A stretch of 20,364 nt of DNA from a virus. The notes beneath the pieces are model-generated. The model ran no database searches. It worked only from the letters and a program-made list of their open reading frames with translations, and was not told where the DNA came from. The first letter of the stretch is position 1. Each line of letters opens with the position of its first letter. Shown in pieces: positions 917 through 20,364 of this stretch. A program made the position numbers and the translations under genes. The DNA lies in the IMG/VR virus record IMGVR_UViG_3300046000_000833, positions 1 to 20,364 of that record, one strand, 5' to 3'.

Positions 917-3900
917 TTAAGCTCCTTGCCTTATGATTTCTGCAATTTCTTCAGGAGTCGCAGCGTTGTCGCTTGACCCTTCAATCTTTTTAAGCAATTC
1001 TTCGATGTCATTTTCGTCGGTTTTGCCCTTCTGGGCAAGTGCTTCTTCCTCAATCTTTTCACCTTCAGCACCGGCTTTGGTAACGCTCAGCGCCTTGTAT
1101 TCTTCTTGCTCCAACTGGCCTTTCTTGCCAACCTTCTGTTTCTTAGACCCAAATTCTTTGCCGTAGTAGAACACGTTGGCCAATTGAGGTACGCCAAAAG
1201 TACCTGCAAGTGCGGTAGCTTGAGGCCAAGTTAAACCCGTTTGCTTACTTGGAACCTTTGGATTCTTAGGCGGCTTAGGCGGCGGTGACTTAGTTGGATC
1301 AGCAATAATTTTATCAATAATTGGGTCATCTATCAGGGTAGTAACCTTGTCAATTACGTCATCGTCTAAGTCGTCAATGATGTCGTCAACCTCTGCTTTT
1401 GTTTTAACTTCGTCCTTAGTTTCAACTTCTGCTTTAGTTTCGGTCTTGGTTTCAGCTTTGGTTTCAGCTTCGGTCTTGGTCTCAGCTTCGGTCTTGGTCT
1501 CAGCTTTGGTTTCAGCTTCGGTCTTGGTCTCAGCTTTGGTTTCAGCTTTAGTATCTGCAACTACATCTGCCTTAGTGTCAGCTTTAGTATCTGCAACTAC
1601 ATCTGCCTTAGTGTCAGCTTTAGTATCTGCTTTAGTGTCTGCAACTACATCTGCCTTAGTGTCAGCTTTAGTATCTGCTTTAGTGTCTGCAACTACATCT
1701 GCCTTAGTGTCAGCTTTAGTATCTGCTTTAGTGTCTGCAACTACATCTGCCTTAGTGTCAGCTTTAGTATCTGCTTTGATGTCTGCAACTACATCTGCCT
1801 TAGTATCTGCTTTGGTGTCAGCCTTAGTATCTGCTTTGGTGTCAGCCTTAGTATCTGCTTTGGTGTCAGCCTTAGTATCTGCTTTGGTGTCTGTAAGCAC
1901 ATCTGCAACAGTGTTAGCTTTAGTCTCAGTTAACCCCGCAGTTTGTAGCTCAGAAACTACATCAGCTTTAGCGCCAACCGTAGCGTCAGCTTTAGTAGCG
2001 TTTTCAATTTTAGTTGCTAACGACGTTGCCGTTTCATCTGAAACTTTAAGCCCAAGATCAGCCATAGTTTGCTGAGCCGTATCAACCGCAGTGGTTGTAC
2101 CCGTAGTTGTTTTGTTAGACGTAATAGCGTTTAGGTCAGCAACGGTTACGCTCTCGCCCTTAGCGTTTGTGCCAATGACCGCAGACGTATCAACCTTTAC
2201 TTCGCCTGAAGTTTTACCTGTTGCCGATTCACCAAGCAGCTCGGCCAGAGTTACGGGTTTACCCTCAGAATCTGTAGCTACAACTTGGTCACCGTTAAGT
2301 TTTGTAACACCTAAGTTATCAAGTGTCTCTTTGCTACCTAAAATTTGGTCGCCAATGATTTCATTAGACGCAGTAATGGACTGATCTTCTGTAAGCCCAG
2401 CATCTTGTAATTGCGTAATGAGCGTATCAGACGCATTGCTTGGAGAAGTGCTGTTCTTTAACGTAGTTGCCGCAGTATCCGCAACAGACTTAACTTGGGT
2501 CTCGGACAACCCAGAGTCTTGAAGCGCTGAAACAGTAGAGTCGGCGGCGCTAATAGTCGCCGTGGTTTTGCCGCCAATAACTGCTTCCCATGCGCTTGTA
2601 CCGGCAATCTTAGTCCAGTTTAAATCATCGTCGGGTTTGATTATTTTTTGCGTACCGCCTTCAATAATGCCAGCTTCTACGCCTTCTCCAGTACCTTCTT
2701 TAACACCCACTTTAGCGGCAGTTGTGGCTATTTCTTTTGCGCCAACTTTACCTGCGGTATCTCCAAAAATTTGTTTGGTCAGTGCGTTACCGCCGGGAAC
2801 TAAATTGAGTGTACCTGTAGTTACTGCACCAAGAGCTAGCGCCTTTTGTGACGCAGTTTGAGCGTCTTTGTCCGACATGCCAGCGTCTTTTGCGCGTTTG
2901 TAAGCATCTTCAGCAGCACCGCCACCTGACTCCATCATGTCTAAAACAACTTCGGTAGAAATACCTAAAGCCCTAGCAATTCTTGGCGCTGCGCCAACTA
3001 ATTTAGCCGCAGTAAGCACGCCCCCAGATGCAAGCAGTTGCGTGCCTTCTTGAAGAATTTCAGACGCTACGTTATAGGCTACAAACCCGGGGTTACTAAC
3101 AATTGTTTTACCTACAACAGCCAAAGCTTCCCAGCCATCTTTAGCAGCGGCCATGTTTTTATTAAAGTCCGAGCTAGCAGCCTTCATTTCTTCTGGCGTT
3201 TTAGCTTTAGAAAAAGCAGCGTAATCACTAACAGCTTGATCTACCGTACCGCCACGTTCTAAAACGTTAATAGCTTTAAGAGTACCCGTAACAAATGAAG
3301 CAATTTGAGATGTTGAGTCTACTGCTAACGCACCAGCATACTCGGCAATCTTGCCGCGCTCAGACAAATTCATACTGCCACCGGTCACATTGCCGTTTGC
3401 GTCGTATTGAACATCATTTACGTAGCTACCACCGTTGTCGGCATTGGAAGTTTTAAGCGCGGCAATTCGTGCAGCGGTTGCATTAAGTGAAGCGTTACGG
3501 GCGGCTGTGTCATTTTGAGCGGCTACTGTTTTACCCGCATCAGTAATTGTGGCTAGGTTAGACTGATTAATTGAAGCAATCTTTGCATCAGCTTTTTTCT
3601 CTGCTTCGGTGGCCGACTCGGTTGTGTATTTACCTGTTACGCCCGTCGCAGGGTTAGTCCATTCAAAAGTTGTATTGGGCCCAAAGGCTAAGCGATTAGC
3701 AGCATAAACGTCTTTAAAAGACGCGGCCTTTGTACCAGCGGCTGTGTTTTTATCAATAGCACCTTGCAAATCACCGAACTCAGTGTCCTCGGTTAAGCCC
3801 GCATTTTGAAGATTTGTTACAACGTCAGTGCTCGCAGTGCCCGCAGCGCCAATTTTGTCAACCTCTTTCATGGCGTCAAAATCTGCTTGGGTTTTTGCGT

Positions 3901-6900
3901 CAACGCCACTTAAAGTCACGCCGTTCCCAGCATCAGACACTACGTTATTAACAACACTTGCTAACTGAACGCCATCGGTTGTTGCATTGCCGTCTGTTAA
4001 TCCAGCGTTAGCCAAAACATTTGTAACGTCGGTGTTCTGCAACGTAGTGTTATCCACTACGTTAGTTTTAGTATCGCTTGTATTGGTTGTCGTTGTTGAT
4101 TGATTAGACGCTTGAAAAGCGTTACCAAACGTTATGCCAGCTTGAATAATATTTGTTTCGTTACCACTCTTAAGCGCGTCAACCAAGTTCTTTGCAGAAG
4201 CCGCGACGTACAGGTCTTTACTGCCAGTCAGGTCGCCAAGAGAAACCAAAGCGGCTGAAAGGTTGTCATCTTTAATTGCAAGTGCTAAGTTTGCGGCTTG
4301 AAAAGCTGTTGTGACGCCTGATGGAAGTGTTCCACCAGTTTGACCGTACGCTGACAAACTTGCGTTAATAACACCAGCAATGTTTTCAGATTGAAGAGCG
4401 GCAACCCCAGAAATGGCTGTCTGGGCGAGCTTGACGTTTGATACCGTGTTTTGCAAATCAAGAATTCGCGAGGTATTGACAATGTCTCCAGCGGCTTCTG
4501 CTGTTTTCAGCGTTGACAACTCGGTTCCAGCAAAAGAACCAGCCGCATTTAAGCCACTCAGCACAGCGCCAAGGTAGTTCTTCTGCTCTATAGCTAACGC
4601 CGCATTTGCCATCATTGCAAAGGGCTGGTGCGGCCCCGGGATCATGGCGGCAATCGAGATGACCATTGGCCCCATCTCGCTTACAAATCCGTATATTCCT
4701 GTTTTTTCTGAAGTTGCCGTGAGGTATGGCGTACCGTCTTCTGTAAACTTTACATTCAACCAATTCTTTCTACCCTTTAAATGGCCACCGCTTCTTTGAT
4801 AAGCTAATTGACCTGAGATATCAGTAAGCTCTGCACCAGTGTCTTTGTCAATGACAACGCTACCAATTTTATGTTGGTAAGTTCCATCTTTAAGTGTTGC
4901 CAACTCCGCCTCAGACAACGGCACAACTGAGACGGTGGAATTCTCTCCACTGCCTTCGAAGACGTGCTTAAAGTATTTTTTTGTAACTTTAGAAGGGTCA
5001 ACTTTTTCATACGACGTGGGGTTGCCTTCCGCGTCCGTTATTGGCACAAGGTATTCATTGCCCTGCTTAATAACTGGTTTACCATCAGCCATGAAAAATT
5101 GTTCAAATGCCGATGTTGTTGTAAACTTGTCTTTCTGACCAAGGTCACCAATAGTGTCTAAACCTTTTTTGACAAGTAGCGCGGCGGAGTTCTCCAAGTC
5201 GCCAAACACACCTTGGAAATACTGACCGCCTAGTGCGTTCCTCTGAGCGTTTAGTTGCTGAAATAAATTTTCTGACTGGATAGCGTCAGATCCATACGCA
5301 CTCCACTTTGTTTCAAGTTCTGCAATCTTGTTCTCGTATCCAGTCAAAGCACTGCCATACAACTTGTCAATGGCTGAATTTGCCTTTGAGCTAATTACGA
5401 AGTCTTTAAGTTGCTGAGTGGTTGAGTCCGTGTTGTTAGCAATTTTTGAAAAGTCTGTCTCAAAGTTTCTGACGGGGTTCAGGCTGTTCTGAATAACCTT
5501 AACATCAACGCCAGTAGCTTTTGCAATGTCATCATCAGTAAAGCCAAACTGTTTCTCTAAAGCGTAACTAGCAATTACCCTGTCAGCATCTGTTAAAACG
5601 TTCGGGCCTGTGAGGGTATCGTTGATGATTTTGTTGCGGTTGGTGTCGTAGCTTGTTAAAAGAGTATCAAACAGAGACTTGTCTTTACCCGTCAGGTCGG
5701 CAAGTTGTTGTGAGTTATACCCAAGATCACGAGCTAATTTGGAAACTTTTTGCGACTCTTCAAACGTTGCGGAGTTGTCTGCAATAATGTCGTTAATGCT
5801 TGTGGTTGTAGTAGTTTTAAGTTGATCTTTGTACTGGTTATATAAAGCTTCACCAAGAGTTGCTTTTAAACCAGCATCGCTAATGCCAAGATCTTTGGCG
5901 TATTTAAAACCAGCTAACGAATTAACACCACCCGCGCCAAATGCACCAGACAACTCTGCGGCGGCGGCAGTACGGAACTTCTCCCGCTCAGAGGCGTCAA
6001 TCTCGTTACCAAAACGGTCTCTCCAGTATTTCTTTCCCTCTTCCTCTGCAATTCTTCCCGGCCCCATAAATTCGCTGTACAAATCTTGAATTCGGCTATC
6101 CAGTTCTGCTTGCGCCGCAGTTTCAAATATTGCGCGATCTTCTGGGCTAATCTCAGAACCAACCGCTTTAAACCAGTCTGCTAAACCTTTAGCATCAGGT
6201 TTACGTCCCAGCACGTCTTCGTACAGACTAACAATACCTGAAACCGCAGCAGGTTTGGTATCTGTTAGATAGTCCGTGACATAAGTACTGTATTTATCTT
6301 CAGGATTGCTTGATAGGTAGTCAACAACAGCGGCTTGAAATGTATTGTTTAAATCCTCTGGTTTGATTTGCCCAGTTTCCAAAGCCGCAGTCCATGCGTC
6401 AAGACTTTCTTTATCAACGTTGGATGCTTCAGTACCGACCCCTGTACGCCCAATAGAAGCGTAGCGATCCAACACCATTTGTCTATAGTTAGGTTGTACT
6501 TGTGTGTCTACAGTAGCCACAAGATTGGGGGCTAGTACCGCTTGTTCTTCTACAGACCGGTTGGCAAGTTCTGATTGGGCGGCTTGCAAGAAGTCAGCTT
6601 TTTCCGACTCATCTACAGTAGGCCCAAATGCGTTTTCCCAGAATGCCTTACCACCTGCATCTGATGGACGACCAAGAATGGTTGTATACAAATCCTCAAC
6701 CGTCATATCAGACTCAGGAATAGACGCAATGTAGTCGTCTACTATGTCAGTAGTTTTTGCGGTGGGAGTTTCAACAGCGGCGGCGCTTGTATCAGCAGGG
6801 GTGGTTACAGCGGCAGGGGTGGTTACAGCGGCGGGAGTTTCAACAGCGGCGGGAGTTTGAACAGCGGCAGGAGTAGTGGCTGGTCGATACGGGGCTAAAG

Positions 6901-7030
6901 TAGACGCAATTGCAGCATCATCTAAACCCATACCCCTTAATGTTGTCAGCAAGTCATTGGTAGCATCCCGCCCACCAAAAACGTCATACACGTCTTCATA
7001 AGCATTAGAAAAATTTGTTGGTAATGCCAT
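917..7030 (-). CDS. Giant repeat-rich phage protein, probable internal virion/ejection protein with DUF4214-like repeats
   Basis: 2037 residues, ATG at 7030 two bases after the preceding stop, without a clear Shine-Dalgarno. Order of parts: residues 52-80 are TPAAV repeats; about 111-156, 265-312 and 315-361 are DUF4214-like units (LYTTILGRPSDAGGKAFW, LYEDVLGRKPDAKGLADW, a third with KKYWRDRFG), with a weaker one near 182-240; about 374-517 hold three helical motifs of the type LGISDAGLKATLG. Hydrophobic Ala/Gly-rich stretches lie near 780-840 and 1310-1420. Five copies of an LQxAGLTE motif lie between about 1000 and 1700. About 1714-1827 are perfect tetrads of the xxAD type (TKAD, VVAD), followed by a KAETKTE tract to about 1880. 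The end is acidic, then PPPKPPKNPK, then a charged helical C-terminus. Size, hydrophobic helices and place among tail and lysis genes suggest an internal protein ejected with the DNA, or a tape-measure-like protein. No catalytic motif was recognised. Function is inference. Confidence 0.9.
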   Translation of the reverse strand: MALPTNFSNAYEDVYDVFGGRDATNDLLTTLRGMGLDDAAIASTLAPYRPATTPAAVQTPAAVETPAAVTTPAAVTTPADTSAAAVETPTAKTTDIVDDYIASIPESDMTVEDLYTTILGRPSDAGGKAFWENAFGPTVDESEKADFLQAAQSELANRSVEEQAVLAPNLVATVDTQVQPNYRQMVLDRYASIGRTGVGTEASNVDKESLDAWTAALETGQIKPEDLNNTFQAAVVDYLSSNPEDKYSTYVTDYLTDTKPAAVSGIVSLYEDVLGRKPDAKGLADWFKAVGSEISPEDRAIFETAAQAELDSRIQDLYSEFMGPGRIAEEEGKKYWRDRFGNEIDASEREKFRTAAAAELSGAFGAGGVNSLAGFKYAKDLGISDAGLKATLGEALYNQYKDQLKTTTTTSINDIIADNSATFEESQKVSKLARDLGYNSQQLADLTGKDKSLFDTLLTSYDTNRNKIINDTLTGPNVLTDADRVIASYALEKQFGFTDDDIAKATGVDVKVIQNSLNPVRNFETDFSKIANNTDSTTQQLKDFVISSKANSAIDKLYGSALTGYENKIAELETKWSAYGSDAIQSENLFQQLNAQRNALGGQYFQGVFGDLENSAALLVKKGLDTIGDLGQKDKFTTTSAFEQFFMADGKPVIKQGNEYLVPITDAEGNPTSYEKVDPSKVTKKYFKHVFEGSGENSTVSVVPLSEAELATLKDGTYQHKIGSVVIDKDTGAELTDISGQLAYQRSGGHLKGRKNWLNVKFTEDGTPYLTATSEKTGIYGFVSEMGPMVISIAAMIPGPHQPFAMMANAALAIEQKNYLGAVLSGLNAAGSFAGTELSTLKTAEAAGDIVNTSRILDLQNTVSNVKLAQTAISGVAALQSENIAGVINASLSAYGQTGGTLPSGVTTAFQAANLALAIKDDNLSAALVSLGDLTGSKDLYVAASAKNLVDALKSGNETNIIQAGITFGNAFQASNQSTTTTNTSDTKTNVVDNTTLQNTDVTNVLANAGLTDGNATTDGVQLASVVNNVVSDAGNGVTLSGVDAKTQADFDAMKEVDKIGAAGTASTDVVTNLQNAGLTEDTEFGDLQGAIDKNTAAGTKAASFKDVYAANRLAFGPNTTFEWTNPATGVTGKYTTESATEAEKKADAKIASINQSNLATITDAGKTVAAQNDTAARNASLNATAARIAALKTSNADNGGSYVNDVQYDANGNVTGGSMNLSERGKIAEYAGALAVDSTSQIASFVTGTLKAINVLERGGTVDQAVSDYAAFSKAKTPEEMKAASSDFNKNMAAAKDGWEALAVVGKTIVSNPGFVAYNVASEILQEGTQLLASGGVLTAAKLVGAAPRIARALGISTEVVLDMMESGGGAAEDAYKRAKDAGMSDKDAQTASQKALALGAVTTGTLNLVPGGNALTKQIFGDTAGKVGAKEIATTAAKVGVKEGTGEGVEAGIIEGGTQKIIKPDDDLNWTKIAGTSAWEAVIGGKTTATISAADSTVSALQDSGLSETQVKSVADTAATTLKNSTSPSNASDTLITQLQDAGLTEDQSITASNEIIGDQILGSKETLDNLGVTKLNGDQVVATDSEGKPVTLAELLGESATGKTSGEVKVDTSAVIGTNAKGESVTVADLNAITSNKTTTGTTTAVDTAQQTMADLGLKVSDETATSLATKIENATKADATVGAKADVVSELQTAGLTETKANTVADVLTDTKADTKADTKADTKADTKADTKADTKADTKADVVADIKADTKADTKADVVADTKADTKADTKADVVADTKADTKADTKADVVADTKADTKADTKADVVADTKADTKADVVADTKAETKAETKTEAETKAETKTEAETKTEAETKAETKTETKAEVETKDEVKTKAEVDDIIDDLDDDVIDKVTTLIDDPIIDKIIADPTKSPPPKPPKNPKVPSKQTGLTWPQATALAGTFGVPQLANVFYYGKEFGSKKQKVGKKGQLEQEEYKALSVTKAGAEGEKIEEEALAQKGKTDENDIEELLKKIEGSSDNAATPEEIAEIIRQGA
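1390..1554 (-). repeat. Degenerate Glu/Lys/Thr/Ala repeat tract in the giant protein
   Basis: This continues the four-residue theme with Glu in place of Asp (TKAETKTEAETK and variants). The DNA is built from short variants of a word reading ggtttcagcttcggtctt on the plus strand, less exact than the neighbouring 48-bp array. It encodes a highly charged, probably helical or disordered segment just before the acidic Asp-rich and proline-rich C-terminal part. It looks like an older expansion of the same kind. Confidence 0.85.
1555..1892 (-). repeat. In-frame tandem repeats, 48-bp and 24-bp units, encoding xxAD tetrads
   Basis: Read on the plus strand, three identical 48-bp units lie at 1597-1644, 1645-1692 and 1693-1740. 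A fourth at 1741-1788 differs at two bases (giving IKAD instead of TKAD), and a 36-bp partial unit precedes them at 1561-1596. Next to them, three identical 24-bp units lie at 1801-1824, 1825-1848 and 1849-1872, with a partial one to 1892. All units are multiples of 12 bases and encode four-residue periods (TKAD, VVAD), so gain or loss of units keeps the reading frame. Near identity of the DNA points to recent expansion by slippage or recombination. Confidence 0.95.
6796..6874 (-). repeat. 15-bp in-frame repeats encoding TPAAV near the N-terminus of the giant protein
   Basis: Five adjoining units of 15 bases, with the plus-strand core acagcggc(g/a)gg, encode TPAAVQ/ETPAAV/TTPAAV from about residue 52 to 80. 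Pro/Ala repeats of this kind usually make an extended flexible linker, here between a short N-terminal helical part and the first DUF4214-like unit. Confidence 0.85.
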
Positions 7031-14977: not shown

Positions 14978-17900
14978 TTATCCTTCAATGAGTTTGGCGA
15001 CCAGCGCCTCAAGTTTAGCGATGCGGTCTTCGTGTTCAGCCACAGCAGCAAGAGCCAAAGCACTGAGTTTTTCGTAGTCTACCGCCAATGAACCATCAGG
15101 TCGAGTGCGAACTGCGCGGGGGAAATTCTTTTGAACGTCTTGGGCTATAACGCCAAAGTCAGCTTTCTGGACAAAATAACCGTCTTCGCCGCCTTCAGAC
15201 GCAACATATTCGTCTGTCCAATCAAACAACTTGCCACCAATTGCTGATGCTGTAGCTGCTGCGTTGGGGATGTTTTGAATATTTTCTTTGAACTTGCTGT
15301 CTGAAGAATAGAAAGCAACAACACTGTTTGTTGCACGAATCTGACCGGCTGTGCCAGAACCTGCTGTACCAACACCCAGAGAGTTCATCTGAAAGTTATT
15401 TGATGTGTTAGTTGCGTTGGCTGTAGTAGCTGTAGTTGCTGTTGTGGCTGTAGCAGCGTTACCAGAACATGAGGTAGATGAACCGTTAATGTTCATTGTC
15501 TGGCCGGACAGAAGTGTAGCGGCTGCTGCGGCTGTGTAGCCTCGACCGTAGTTGTCCGAACCGTTTGTTCCGGTAAAAGTGGCCATGCCGCTAGTGTTTG
15601 CGCTGGCCGTTACAGGAAATGTTCCTGATGCGTTGTAGTAAACAGCAAAAACGTAACCGTTGACATCTCGGGCAACAACTTTACTCGCAGTAGCCGCAGT
15701 AGTTGCATCAACAGCAGCAGTTACCGCAGCAGAACCATTGAATGATGTGCCCGTCAAATACGAGCCGAGTGTCAGCGTATTAGTCGTGTTTGCTGTAATG
15801 GTGATGTTGGCGCTACCGTTAAACGATGTGCCGTTAATTGTGCGGGCTGTTTGTAGCGTTGTGGCAGTAGCCGCGTTACCTGTAGTCGAGCTAGAAGTTG
15901 TAGCATTTCCAGATAAAGCCGCTGTTATTGTGCCCGCGCTAAAGTTACCAGAAGCATCCCTAGCAACAATGGCCGATGCTGTATTTGCGTTGGTAGCGTT
16001 AGACGTTACTGTAAATGTAGCTGCGCTTGACTGATTAGCCGTGAATGTCTGTGAACCAGACAAGCCCGTGCCGGACACATTCATTGTCAGTGTGCCGTTG
16101 TTTACGTTGGCGGCTGTTGTAGCCGTTGTAGCATTCCCAGACAAAGACGCTGTAATAGTACCGGCAGAGAAGTTACCCGAGGCATCACGCGCTACGATGG
16201 CCGATGCAGTGTTTGCATTAGTGGCAGTTGTGGCTGAGTTGGAAACTTTGCCAGCAGTCGAGATCGTGCTCAGCTTGGTATCTGCAATAGAGCCTGCCAA
16301 CATGGTGTTGGTTACGGTGCCAGAATCGCCCGTTGTAATCGCCGTACCTGTTGTGGCTGGAAGCGTAAAGACTGTACCCGTACCAGCAATAGCCGCAGGG
16401 ATAACCTGAACCGTACCAGAAGTAGAACCGGGTAAGGTGACGCTAGAAATGCCAGTCAATGCTTGGTTAGCTGATGTTCTGTTTAGCGCAGTAGAAGTTG
16501 TTCCAATAAAAACTGCGGAGTTACCCAGTACAGCCGAAGGAATGGTTCCCGCCAAATTGCCAGCAGTCAAGTTTGTCAAATTAGCGCCGGTAACAGCACC
16601 AAACAAGCCAGACCATGTGCCCGTAGTCACCGTGCCGGTTGTGGTCAAATTTGTAGACCCGGCCAAAGGCGAAGCGCCAATGGTATTGTAGGAAATTGTC
16701 TGTGCGGCAGAACCATTAAACGTTGTGCCTGATACTGCGCCTGTACCGCTGCTGTTCATTGTCAGTGCGTTAGGCAAAGAAAGGGCAGAGTAAGCAAACG
16801 CAGAACCTGTCCAGTTCAGATATGTAGCCGCCGTTGTAGGAGCAACAATATAAGCCGTTGTGCCTGCCGCTGTGTTGTACGAAATCTGGTTAGCTGCACC
16901 GCCAGCCGTGTTTGTTGCTGTGGTTGCTGTAGTTGCGTTACCAGTCAACGCGGCTGTGATCGTGCCCGCGGCGAAGTTACCAGAGGCGTCACGAGCTACA
17001 ACCTTAGAGGCGGTATTGGTAGACGTGGCGTCTACCGCAAATGTACGAGCCGCAGAACCATCATACGTACCTGCGCTCGTTAGGTATGTACCCGCAGTCA
17101 AAGCATTGGCCACTGAACCCGCTTGTCCGGAGATGGCTCCTGTTACAGCAGCGCCATTGATTGCAATAGCTGTATTGGTTACAGAAGTAAGTTGGCCCTG
17201 TGCATTAACTGCAAATACAGGAACTTGAGAAGCAGAACCGTATGTAGCGGCTGAAACCGTGGTGTTAGCAATGTTAAACGTGTAAGTTGGAGACTCGTTT
17301 AAACCTGTACCCGCCGTGTACGTAATTGGCGCAGAAAACTGCTGAAAAACAATTGCTGTCGTGCCAATTGTGATGGGTGGCGGAGTCTGTTGCACCCAAG
17401 CGGTGTTGACATTAGCCGTGCCACTGGTCACCAAGAAGAAGTCGCCCTCGTCGATCTGGTCAACGCCCGTACCAACAGAGTCCATGTCTGATGATCGGGT
17501 TAGGATGTAAGGCGTTCCAGCAGAGCCAACCTGCGTGACAACGTACACGCCGTTATTTGCACCGGCTACTTCGTTCTTGACCAGTATTCTTTCGGAGACA
17601 ACAGTCAGTGTTGAGTCCACAGACAGAGCGCCGTTGGCGTTTCCTGTGAGCGTTGCGCCAACTCCAGAGGAGCCGTTGTTGTATGTGTTTGCTGGCAGCG
17701 CTGCTGTGGTGGCTAAAGCAACTGCTTCGTGGAAGTGAATACCAGATGCAATTGCGTCAGCGTACTCTTTATTAACAATGTCTGTATTACTAGTAGGAGC
17801 CGTAGAAATTGTGCCTGTAGTTAACGCTGCAGATGTTGCGGTAATTGCGCCAAATGCGGTTTGGACTACTTGCGTTCCTGCTTCATTTTGATACGCCGAC

Positions 17901-18199
17901 CGTGAGGATGGGTACGTAACAAAAACATCTTTTGAATTGGCGGCAAAATTTACTAGGGAACCGCCATTACTAGACGACAGAACCGTTGTACGAGATAACG
18001 TTGTACCGGAAGAAGTGTACGTACCGATGCCTACTTCCCAATCACCTGTGATTGAGTCTGCGATGGCATAGTATGTTGTGTTGCCGTTACCTACAGCGGC
18101 AAAAGATTGAAACCCAGATACCGCCCCAGCAAGTGTCAGTGTGCCTGTACCAGCAGTGGTAGAGGTTTCTTTAACCCGATCTTTTAAAACTAAAGCCAT
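14978..18199 (-). CDS. Large tail fibre/spike protein with C-terminal peptidase S74 intramolecular chaperone
   Basis: 1073 residues. AAGGA at 18206-18210 supports the ATG at 18199. Residues 1-105 are a conserved fibre opening (MALVLKDRVKETSTTAGTGT, YYAIADSITGDWEVG, DVFVTYPSSRSAYQNE). Residues about 150-330 form a second module (HFHEAVALATTAALPANTYN; RILVKNEVAGANNGVYVVTQ). Residues about 330-940 are a long repetitive Thr/Ala/Gly/Asn shaft with recurring VARDASGNF units. The last 108 residues are an S74 domain: SDSKFKENI, FGVIAQDVQKNFP and a helical end (DRIAKLEALVAKL). Ser966 and Lys971 have the Ser/Lys dyad spacing known for endosialidase-type chaperones, so self-cleavage after trimer folding is expected. 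The shaft is probably a receptor-contacting trimer. No depolymerase active site was recognised. Confidence 0.95.
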   Translation of the reverse strand: MALVLKDRVKETSTTAGTGTLTLAGAVSGFQSFAAVGNGNTTYYAIADSITGDWEVGIGTYTSSGTTLSRTTVLSSSNGGSLVNFAANSKDVFVTYPSSRSAYQNEAGTQVVQTAFGAITATSAALTTGTISTAPTSNTDIVNKEYADAIASGIHFHEAVALATTAALPANTYNNGSSGVGATLTGNANGALSVDSTLTVVSERILVKNEVAGANNGVYVVTQVGSAGTPYILTRSSDMDSVGTGVDQIDEGDFFLVTSGTANVNTAWVQQTPPPITIGTTAIVFQQFSAPITYTAGTGLNESPTYTFNIANTTVSAATYGSASQVPVFAVNAQGQLTSVTNTAIAINGAAVTGAISGQAGSVANALTAGTYLTSAGTYDGSAARTFAVDATSTNTASKVVARDASGNFAAGTITAALTGNATTATTATNTAGGAANQISYNTAAGTTAYIVAPTTAATYLNWTGSAFAYSALSLPNALTMNSSGTGAVSGTTFNGSAAQTISYNTIGASPLAGSTNLTTTGTVTTGTWSGLFGAVTGANLTNLTAGNLAGTIPSAVLGNSAVFIGTTSTALNRTSANQALTGISSVTLPGSTSGTVQVIPAAIAGTGTVFTLPATTGTAITTGDSGTVTNTMLAGSIADTKLSTISTAGKVSNSATTATNANTASAIVARDASGNFSAGTITASLSGNATTATTAANVNNGTLTMNVSGTGLSGSQTFTANQSSAATFTVTSNATNANTASAIVARDASGNFSAGTITAALSGNATTSSSTTGNAATATTLQTARTINGTSFNGSANITITANTTNTLTLGSYLTGTSFNGSAAVTAAVDATTAATASKVVARDVNGYVFAVYYNASGTFPVTASANTSGMATFTGTNGSDNYGRGYTAAAAATLLSGQTMNINGSSTSCSGNAATATTATTATTANATNTSNNFQMNSLGVGTAGSGTAGQIRATNSVVAFYSSDSKFKENIQNIPNAAATASAIGGKLFDWTDEYVASEGGEDGYFVQKADFGVIAQDVQKNFPRAVRTRPDGSLAVDYEKLSALALAAVAEHEDRIAKLEALVAKLIEG
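15655..17010 (-). repeat. VARDASGNF/GNATTAT repeat units of the S74 fibre shaft
   Basis: At least four related units start near 17010, 16207, 15977 and 15690 (minus strand). They encode SKVVARDASGNFAAGTIT, SAIVARDASGNFSAGTIT (twice) and a diverged KVVARDVNGYVFA. Each of the first three is followed by a Thr/Ala-rich GNATTAT stretch. The two middle copies are nearly identical in protein but differ at many third codon positions, suggesting older duplication held by selection or repeated recombination between fibre alleles. Confidence 0.8.
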
Positions 18200-18208
18200 T
18201 TTTAATCC

Positions 18209-19132
18209 TTACGACGGTAAGTTGTTCCAACCGGGGTTTTGAGCACTGTTGATATTTTGCCAGTTTGGGTTCTGGCTGTCATCAATTACCGCCCAAACAA
18301 GTACGTCGCCAATAGAAACAAGAAGCTGGATGCCCGTCACGTTTGCGTTTACCGTCTTAACAACACTTATAGCATCAATCGCAGATACAAACTCAGCAAC
18401 AGAACCAGCAAATACAACCTGCGTTGACACCGCATCCACAGCAGAAGCGCCTTCATTGACAGCCACTTGAATAGAAAGGCCGCGCTGCATCAAATCAACG
18501 CCAGACACACCTTCAGCTACAAGCGCTACAAAACTAGCCGCAACTGTGTTGGCATCAATACCACTAATAGCTTCAACAATAGCAGCAACAAAATCAACCT
18601 GCGATGTACTTACGGCACTGGCAGAAACACCCTCGGCAACCGCTGCGGCAAACGCCACTTGCGTTGCTAAAGAATCAACACCAGAACCCGCTTCAGAAAT
18701 GCTTACGGCAAATACTGCCTGCCCAACTATTGCATCTACAGCACTTGCGGCTTCCGCAACACTACTAACAAAATTAACTTGCCCAGCAACGGCATCTACA
18801 CCAGAAGCTGCTTCCGTGATATTTCCGGGGTATGTGCCCAAAGCAGAAACAGTATCAACCCCGCTTGCGGCTTCTGGAATAGAAACATTGAACGTGTTGT
18901 TGATGGTATCAACAGAATCCACGCCAGACGCAGCTTCTGCAACTGATCCCGCAAAGGTAGTAAGCACAGAAACGTTATCTAGCGCAGACACGCTCTCAGC
19001 CATCACACCACCGGCGATAAAGATTGCATCTACAGCATCAACGCCTGACCCTGATTCTGAAACGGAGACGGCGAACGTGTTGCCCCCTTGAGAGGCAAAC
19101 GGCGCTTGAGCAAAAGCTACATCCCCGAACAT
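18209..19132 (-). CDS. Virion protein made of about twelve 20-residue beta repeats
   Basis: 307 residues, ATG at 19132, six bases after the preceding stop with a weak AGGG upstream. Residues from about 19 to 255 are tandem units of about 20 residues with the consensus F-x-x-x-V-x-E-x-x-S-x-V-D-x-V, for example FNVSIPEAASGVDTVSALGT, FVSSVAEAASAVDAIVGQAV and FAVSISEAGSGVDSLATQVA. Glu, Ser and Asp recur at fixed positions. The units differ in DNA, so the array is old and kept by selection. The C-terminal 40 residues are different: a hydrophobic LLVSIGDVLVWAVID, then DSQNPNWQ and SAQNPGWNN, a duplicated Gln-Asn-Pro-x-Trp motif. Comparable EaaSaxD repeats occur, as I recall, in other uncultured phages. 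A fibre or beta-solenoid structure is inferred; function unknown. Confidence 0.88.
   Translation of the reverse strand: MFGDVAFAQAPFASQGGNTFAVSVSESGSGVDAVDAIFIAGGVMAESVSALDNVSVLTTFAGSVAEAASGVDSVDTINNTFNVSIPEAASGVDTVSALGTYPGNITEAASGVDAVAGQVNFVSSVAEAASAVDAIVGQAVFAVSISEAGSGVDSLATQVAFAAAVAEGVSASAVSTSQVDFVAAIVEAISGIDANTVAASFVALVAEGVSGVDLMQRGLSIQVAVNEGASAVDAVSTQVVFAGSVAEFVSAIDAISVVKTVNANVTGIQLLVSIGDVLVWAVIDDSQNPNWQNINSAQNPGWNNLPS
18369..19075 (-). repeat. Protein-level tandem array, about 60 bp per unit
   Basis: About twelve in-frame units of roughly 20 codons encode the E-x-x-S-x-V-D pattern of the 307-aa protein. On the plus strand they appear as recurring words such as agcttctgcaac and gcttccgcaac, roughly 60 bases apart. 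Units are degenerate at the DNA level, unlike the exact 48-bp repeats of the giant gene. Confidence 0.85.
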
Positions 19133-19138
19133 ACCCTA

Positions 19139-19702
19139 TTAGGTCGCTGTTAAGGAAAACTGATATGTTACGTTCAGTGTATCGCCGTTGGCTACAGACT
19201 TATCAAGGCCCTGAAAGTTTCCTACAGAGAACAAAATACCAGAGTTGTCTGTAGTAGAAGCCAAGAAAGCTCCAGCAATCGTAGCTGTATTATTCATAGC
19301 AAACGATGCGGGGGAAGCTGTGTTAGAAATCACTGATGGGTTAGCTGTAGAAGCCGCGCCAAACGTCACAGCTTTGCGACTACCTGTGTATGCGGTGTTT
19401 TCCGCCCAACCTGCGTGGGAGGCCAAGGTATCGCCAGCAGCGTATGTATTGCTTGCACCGGGGCCTGTTACCAAACCAAGATACCAAGTGGTAGTCTGCG
19501 CAGTACCAGCAAGGTACGCACCGTTCATGTTGGCCAAGCCTTGGTTAACGACCAAGTTGTGGAAGGTGTCTGACCACTTCTCTACGCCGTCTGCGCCTAC
19601 GCAAGTAACGGTGTAAACACCACCAGCACCAACGGTTTCACCGAGGCCGGGGCGTGTGACTAAAGTGGCTGTCACTTGGTCTTTTGCTGAACTGAATTCC
19701 AT
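19139..19702 (-). CDS. Conserved virion structural protein
   Basis: 187 residues. AAGGA at 19709-19713 overlaps the previous stop and supports the ATG at 19702. The N-terminal part contains VTCVGADGVEKWSDTFHNLV; residues 55-100 contain NMNGAYLAG, TTWYLGLVTGPG and YAAGDTLASHAGW; the end has FSVGNFQGLDKSVANGDTLN and VTYQFSLTA. The 'YAAGDT..SHAGW' and 'GDTL.VTY..SL' motifs match a family of small phage structural proteins I recall next to adaptor and fibre genes. It is probably a tail or fibre-attachment component. No enzyme motif, membrane segment or signal peptide is visible. Confidence 0.88.
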   Translation of the reverse strand: MEFSSAKDQVTATLVTRPGLGETVGAGGVYTVTCVGADGVEKWSDTFHNLVVNQGLANMNGAYLAGTAQTTTWYLGLVTGPGASNTYAAGDTLASHAGWAENTAYTGSRKAVTFGAASTANPSVISNTASPASFAMNNTATIAGAFLASTTDNSGILFSVGNFQGLDKSVANGDTLNVTYQFSLTAT

Positions 19703-19711
19703 GATAGATCC

Positions 19712-20161
19712 TTAAGAAATGCGCACAATCGCGCTGTTGGCATCGGGGGTTGGGAAGATGATTTGGAAAGTATCGTTGCTTACTGTCTTGTCTGAACCGA
19801 AGTCCAGCACAGCAACAGACTTGTTGCCTTGAGTAACGTTATAAATCAAAGCGCCTCTAGCTGTAAATGTGGCATTTGTCCAAGTTGTGTTGTTGAACGA
19901 AACAAACGCTGTAGGAACACCGCTAGTATTGTTGCCGGAAGTTGGCGAAGTGGAAATCACCAACGTGTTACCGCCGGTTGTGTAACCGCCCCCATTTGGC
20001 ACTTCGTTAGTACTGTTATAGACGGTTGTGGTTGGGCCAATGTTTGCCGCTGCTGTATACAACGCCACTTTAAAAGTGTTAGGTGTGGTAGGGCCAAAGT
20101 TATGAACCGCCTGAAGCAGTTCAACTTTAAAACTTGTGGTTGCTGTTTGCGAAATTGACAT
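19712..20161 (-). CDS. Conserved small virion protein
   Basis: 149 residues. The ATG at 20161 comes one base after the upstream stop, with AAGGTG about nine bases before it. Beginning MSISQTATTSFKVELLQAVHNFG, it continues with FKVALYTAAANIG, NEVPNGGGYTTGGNTL, FNNTTWTNATFTARGALIYN, AVLDFGSDKTV and FPTPDANSAIVRIS. This pattern is very recurrent in uncultured phages as I remember it, directly after adaptor genes. It is rich in beta strands and probably a tail or head-tail structural protein. The following 187-aa gene has similar composition, so the two may assemble together. Confidence 0.88.
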   Translation of the reverse strand: MSISQTATTSFKVELLQAVHNFGPTTPNTFKVALYTAAANIGPTTTVYNSTNEVPNGGGYTTGGNTLVISTSPTSGNNTSGVPTAFVSFNNTTWTNATFTARGALIYNVTQGNKSVAVLDFGSDKTVSNDTFQIIFPTPDANSAIVRIS

Positions 20162-20162
20162 A

Positions 20163-20364
20163 TCAAGTCACCTTTTGTCGGAACTGTCCAGAACGATATG
20201 CGTCTTGACGCTCCATACCATCGGCCAAACGTTTTGCTAGTGCAAGAGCTTCCATGAACTTCTGATTGTACAGAGTCATCATATCTGGCTCACCCTTCAT
20301 GTAGGTGTAAGCCTCAACCAATGAGCCGTACAACAGCACAGAATCGAAGTTATCACCAAGCCAT
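20163..20364 (-). CDS. Adaptor/head-tail connector-like protein, C-terminal fragment
   Basis: A reading frame enters from the window edge and ends with TGA at 20163-20165, giving the last 66 residues. The visible part is helical: DNFDSVLLYGSLVEAYTYMK, then MTLYNQKFMEALALAKRLAD, then ERQDAYRSGQFRQK. The LLYGSLVEAYTYMKGE segment followed by a Tyr-x-x-x-Phe-x-x-Ala helix resembles phage adaptor proteins (SU10 adaptor type, head-tail connector). The start and most of the protein are outside. Position at the head of the tail gene block fits a neck component. Family assignment is tentative. Confidence 0.75.
   Translation of the reverse strand, partial: WLGDNFDSVLLYGSLVEAYTYMKGEPDMMTLYNQKFMEALALAKRLADGMERQDAYRSGQFRQKVT

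Follow-up and report, generated by a model that had tools for sequence, protein, structure and literature searches.

A family of probable short-tail proteins of freshwater phages composed of a cap, a repeat shaft and a tryptophan-repeat end

What kind of protein is encoded at 18209..19132 of this viral DNA, where units of about 20 residues recur with fixed Glu, Ser and Asp, and what use would the virus have for it? The window, by which we mean the whole stretch of 20,364 bases analysed (virus record G000), contains genes that point to a short-tailed phage, including a relative of the phage stabilisation protein (39% to DSL-LC04, see below), an endolysin, and fibre genes bearing S74 and tail-assembly-chaperone domains. 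We consider it probable, at about 60%, that the repeat protein serves a podovirus-type phage as a structural component of its short tail, built as a three-part appendage. Its function we infer from position and architecture alone.

The open reading frame lies on the minus strand, a strand that the preliminary description had not named, and extends from an ATG at 19132 to a stop at 18209. The start at 19132 is supported by the MFG cap, which is invariant in the relatives (columns M1, F2, G3, F7, Q9, P11, F12, A13 and G17 in 41 sequences). A contig from a second sample agrees with the window over 9303 bases except for 9 mismatches (99.9%), and the stretch is therefore not an assembly artefact of a single record. 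In a charge-hydropathy plot the predicted protein falls on the ordered side. The gene and its parts are as follows.

18209..19132, minus strand: repeat protein gene, 307 aa, pI about 4.05, one Lys and one Arg
19076..19132, minus strand: N-terminal cap, residues 1-19, beginning MFGDVAFAQAPFASQGG; one of two exchangeable cap types of the family
18362..19075, minus strand: array of 12 E units, each 20 residues long except for one of 21
18287..18361, minus strand: terminal unit, residues 258-282, which resembles one V-T-G-V-Q-type unit and links the E units with the Trp repeat
18212..18295, minus strand: C-terminal 11-residue Trp repeat, D-x-Q-N-P-x-W, with W280, W291 and W302

Within the array, E-x-x-S occurs at residues 26, 46, 66, 87, 107, 127, 147, 167, 187, 207, 227 and 247, a spacing of 20 residues that becomes 21 once. 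Glu is present in 12/12 units, Asp in 11/12, Val at E+5 in 8/12 and Ser in 12/12, the last by definition of the E-x-x-S search, giving the consensus F-x-x-x-[VI]-x-E-x-[AV]-S-[GA]-V-D; all 12 Glu of the whole protein are repeat Glu. Shuffling produced E-x-x-S chains of at most 2 (5000 shuffles) against the 12 observed, and self-identity reaches 0.26 at a shift of 20 and 0.27 at a shift of 40 against a shuffle maximum of 0.196 (2000 shuffles). The preliminary description was therefore right to see about twelve 20-residue repeats with fixed Glu, Ser and Asp, but its statement that the protein consists almost entirely of them is too strong, as the array (residues 18-257) makes up about 78% of the protein.

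The same description held that the DNA is diverged between units while the pattern is selected, and this is borne out. Mean DNA identity between units is 48%, and the fixed Ser is encoded by codons of both classes (TCT 8, TCA 1, AGT 2, AGC 1). Among relatives, conservation is 0.986 for Glu, 0.944 for Ser and 0.812 for Asp versus 0.636 in the other repeat columns. Approximately 31% of the family units sampled have Ala, Ser or Glu where Asp would stand. The dN/dS values of the repeats lie between 0.13 and 0.33 in 12 relatives of the same length, and the repeats are thus under purifying selection. Adjoining units are barely more alike than remote ones, with identities of 0.317, 0.298, 0.297 and 0.287 at distances of one to four units (76 of 82 proteins used). 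This near-flat profile lacks an odd-even alternation, so all units look equivalent, and a two-unit hairpin repeat of 40 residues was rejected on the same grounds.

Relatives are numerous in metagenomic virus records. A single-sequence scan of IMG/VR gave 80 loci, with 162 stretches encoding relatives, a profile scan gave 79 loci, with at least 465 such stretches, and a search with the DSL-LC04 protein added 80 further loci. Copies were dropped only if the 150 bases at the match (loci) or the last 150 residues (ORF set) were identical, and a single contig may stand under several locus identifiers. The bacterial and archaeal genomes scanned contained no relative, and so offer no hint that the family occurs in prophages or stems from cells. 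In agreement with the earlier statement that no named fold was known for it, the window protein found nothing at useful scores in Pfam, PHROGs or NCBIfam. PHROGs matches just two of the relatives, L068 (3e-7) and L070 (3e-4), in both cases on the repeat array and through PHROG 12240, a family that has no assigned function and does not match the window protein. A relative of 747 aa has no match in named phages. The family is not described in the literature searched, which included the available text of PMC10611076 and PMC9599517, and none of the literature matches listed reports virion proteomics on it. We conclude that the protein is real, widespread and unnamed, and that it belongs to bacterial viruses of freshwater.

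The family is assembled from two cap types (MFG and WG), at least two types of shaft unit and the Trp-repeat end, the shaft units being either 20-residue E units or V-T-G-V-Q units of 20 or 22 residues (V20, V22). Among 188 distinct ORFs that bear the end motif, a set drawn from loci below L349, these parts re-assort. The most frequent combination of cap and unit is that of the window protein, MFG/E (112 ORFs), followed by WG/V22 (27), MFG/V22 (12), WG/V20 (9), MFG/few (8), other/E and other/few (5 each), WG/E (4), MFG/V20 and other/V22 (2 each), and other/V20 and WG/few (1 each). Both cap patterns are rarer elsewhere: of the N-termini of 3454 other ORFs in these loci, 86 show MFG and 71 WG. 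Homology between E and V units is not detectable (4% versus 7-10% for reversed controls), so that an equal function of the two as shafts would follow from their shared ends and shared slot. V20 and V22 units compare at 94.6%, and we regard their link as moderate given a reversed control of 72% and a V20 set of 12 windows from 4 proteins.

Several relatives depart from these combinations. In L068 (2931-6221), L236 and L257, E units and the Trp end follow very different long N-terminal parts, and in L081 (3875-6025) a domain of about 300 aa is inserted ahead of the Trp end. At L080, positions 2845-4032, a protein like that of PHROG 8123 continues in frame into a capless E-repeat protein, representing either a gene fusion or a recombinant. 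Loci L007 and L135 both belong to IMGVR_UViG_3300020044_000300, a 16.7-kb record with two opposed tail modules, each with a repeat protein, which is probably a chimeric assembly.

In the window protein, Trp at 280, 291 and 302 follows an exact period of 11 residues; the duplicated Gln-Asn-Pro-x-Trp reported at first sight (287 and 298), for which a possible attachment or binding role was suggested, is real, but it is part of this three-Trp repeat. The spacing between Trp residues is exactly 11 in 492 of 498 cases in the 188 ORFs, whose end motif is not independent evidence, as they were selected by it. A strict form of the motif is found in 75 of 77 complete ORFs from the single-sequence IMG/VR scan and in 55 of 75 from the set found with the DSL-LC04 protein. 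In a profile comparison, the C-termini of E-type and V-type proteins match at 99.3% (E 1.6e-20; reversed controls below 1%) and are on this measure homologous; the sets compared were chosen by pattern, which raises their similarity before the Trp, and omitted 37 of the 188 ORFs whose pattern was unmatched or whose unit type was unclear. By the same method the terminal unit of E-type proteins matches V22 units at 34.5%, versus 0.3-0.4% for reversed controls. One V22 protein with an MFG-like cap (L347:1-639, MW202675 UOF80312) carries a different Trp-rich end, W-N-G-x-x-W, as if the Trp end too had been exchanged.

Protein length varies in steps, of 20 residues in the shaft and of 11 at the end. 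In 93 E-type proteins the distance from the cap to the Trp is 117-118 (6 proteins), 178 (1), 197-201 (56), 277-281 (29) or 698 (1), and the tail after that Trp measures 28 (39 proteins), 39 (44) or 61 residues (6), with single proteins at 17, 18, 20 and 24. Of 16 relatives, 6 have much greater synonymous divergence in the repeats than in the C-terminus (P 2e-4 to 3e-8), and 4 have greater divergence there than in the cap (P 8e-5 to 6e-4); the remaining relatives show no such contrast at P <1e-3. This contrast fits an exchange of cassettes at conserved ends, although constraint on the DNA could also account for the low synonymous change there.

The surroundings of the gene bear on its role. Its nearest neighbours in the window are the following.

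20163..20363, minus strand: C-terminal portion of a protein that matches PHROG 2941, of the head and packaging class (E 0.0025)
19712..20161, minus strand: PHROG 644-like protein, upstream in 85/90 relatives
19139..19702, minus strand: PHROG 8123-like protein, upstream in 85/90 relatives
14978..18199, minus strand: tail-fibre protein of 1073 aa with an S74 intramolecular chaperone domain (PF13884, 5.7e-10; PHROG 5668, 7.6e-17), directly downstream

On the minus strand the order is thus PHROG-2941-like end, PHROG-644-like gene, PHROG-8123-like gene, repeat protein and S74 fibre. More fibre genes and the lysis genes come next, and then the genes for the stabilisation protein and for a protein of 2037 aa. 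This last ORF, 917-7030(-), contains a dense short tandem repeat at window positions 1386-1924, with units of 12, 24, 36 and 48 bases and a protein repeat of the D-T-K-A-D type. Among 103 distinct matching loci, 90 had enough upstream and 88 enough downstream sequence to be counted. The genes for the 644-like protein, the 8123-like protein and the adaptor end lie just upstream in 85 of the 90 each, and a fibre gene (S74 or 13800 gene) lies within 500 bases downstream in 79 of the 88. The 644-like gene is absent from its usual place in five of the 90 (L068, L077, L079, L081 and L146), and in L079, L081 and L146 the repeat gene is placed after the S74 fibre. The slot is therefore a fixed one in a tail module beside fibre genes, as would be expected of a tail-fibre or shaft protein. 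The PHROG 644-like and 8123-like genes (19139-20161) are kept in this slot, and PHROG 644 is also found in named pelagiphages and roseophages.

The gene also comes after two small genes and, before these, the gene of an adaptor, which is a protein of the neck, the adaptor annotation being carried by the DSL-LC04 counterpart of the PHROG-2941-like gene. Together with the lack of a recognisable receptor-binding domain, this would suit a head-fibre protein or a decoration of head or neck, in which the repeats spread the protein from the capsid or neck surface. We regard this as unlikely, given that the genes directly downstream encode fibres carrying S74 and tail-assembly-chaperone domains and that in three loci the gene stands behind the S74 fibre itself.

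The fold is less easily read. It had been suggested at the outset that the strict period points to a regular beta-structure, possibly a solenoid whose acidic residues form ladders able to bind metal ions. With Glu, Ser and Asp as the putative ladder residues, the recurrence of conserved acidic residues every 20 residues in a protein with just two bases agrees with that idea, as do the short strands of an AlphaFold monomer of the window protein (41 sequences; mean pLDDT 31.2). A model of the information-richer relative L079 (29 sequences; mean pLDDT 36.6) instead places approximately one helix in each unit, and at such confidence neither model can be used. On both scales and in each of the five E-unit groups, averaged hydrophobicity points to helix more than to strand, if weakly (P for the difference 0.03-0.36). 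Instead of metal ladders, S-x-x-D may equally represent a helix capping box, with the joint occurrence of [ST] and [DE] barely above expectation in the main clade (0.474 versus 0.451). Considering also how often Asp is replaced, we find the proposal of beta ladders doubtful, and these observations do not support it.

V22 units show the opposite tendency, strand over helix. It is possible, and we offer it tentatively, that a common cap and a common Trp end accept either helical 20-residue units capped by S-x-x-D or beta units of 20 or 22 residues, and that recombination at the ends would swap stalks of differing make and length between phages. These tendencies also bear on the idea of a tail needle or plug of the P22 gp26 kind, in which a trimer would form a rod whose N-terminal plug is conserved and whose body varies in length by repeats. 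The short conserved N-terminal motif, the rod-like repeats with their weak helical bias in E units, and the relative of the stabilisation protein encoded in the window would all accord with a needle. Yet Pfam, PHROGs and NCBIfam yield no needle-family match, the strand-leaning V units that occupy the same slot do not fit a coiled coil, and the gene lies about 9 kb from that of the stabilisation protein, making a needle quite improbable.

The short-tail structural protein that we favour has the three-part build shown above, in which n equivalent units of 20 residues form the shaft between the conserved cap at the N-terminus and the Trp-repeat piece at the C-terminus. It would be located in the virion as a fibre or stalk of several chains, perhaps three, with its length set by the number of units, and both conserved ends would dock on other tail parts, one of them perhaps the neighbouring fibre. 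As the searches detected no known globular domain, the shaft would serve as a variable spacer and not as a receptor-binding head. An abundant but unnamed family of tail-module proteins of freshwater phages (at least 465 stretches), related at its ends to hypothetical pelagiphage proteins, thereby gains an architecture defined well enough for annotation. Should the shaft indeed be a length-setting spacer swapped as a cassette, the family would offer a simple natural system for the tuning of phage tail appendages. For structural work, the Trp repeat with its exact 11-residue period is an obvious target.

Searching the PDB by sequence and by profile yielded no convincing solved relative. Clostridial toxin A (single sequence, E 0.0014 over 67 residues) and colicin Ia (profile, E 0.0041) were taken as composition matches. 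The CROP repeats of clostridial toxins are an aromatic-rich motif, and no repeat of this kind was found in the 240-residue array, which has 12 aromatic residues and no Trp. The 'tail repeat like protein' of MJing1, encoded in a similar slot, was rejected at a best E of 0.44.

By tblastn with the window protein, which also matches V-type loci, DSL-LC04 is the sole named relative (34% over 55 C-terminal residues, E 0.01), and according to the available text of PMC10611076 it is known solely from a metagenome assembly. Its protein WJZ48131.1 (OR003939.1), annotated as hypothetical, is encoded after a PHROG-644-like gene, as in the window, and before a gene annotated as intramolecular chaperone domain protein. 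Like the window protein it has the homologous C-terminal unit and 11-residue Trp repeat; unlike it, it has a WG-type cap and 22-residue V-T-G-V-Q units, and no homologue of the 8123-like protein was found in DSL-LC04. Further V-type members identified by blastp, all annotated as hypothetical, are gp68 of Pelagibacter phages HTVC023P (E 1e-26) and HTVC027P (3e-13), gp57 of Roseobacter phage CRP-603 (1e-10) and UOF80312 of MW202675 (1e-34). HTVC027P gp68 directly follows its PHROG-644-like gene, CRP-603 gp57 is without the window-type Trp end, and UOF80312 closes with its different Trp-rich repeat. With V-T-G-V-Q proteins of the DSL-LC04 and HTVC023P gp68 type, the window protein thus has ends and slot in common, but not the shaft unit.

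The adenovirus fibre shaft, the T4 gp5 needle and P22 gp26 are rods of equivalent short repeats between end domains. The window protein would have a similar rod plan, without a sequence relation to them in the PDB and, unlike them, without a detectable terminal knob or enzyme domain. By analogy it would work like these repeat-shaft fibres while being by sequence a member of none, and the family is in this sense an undescribed one of a known kind.
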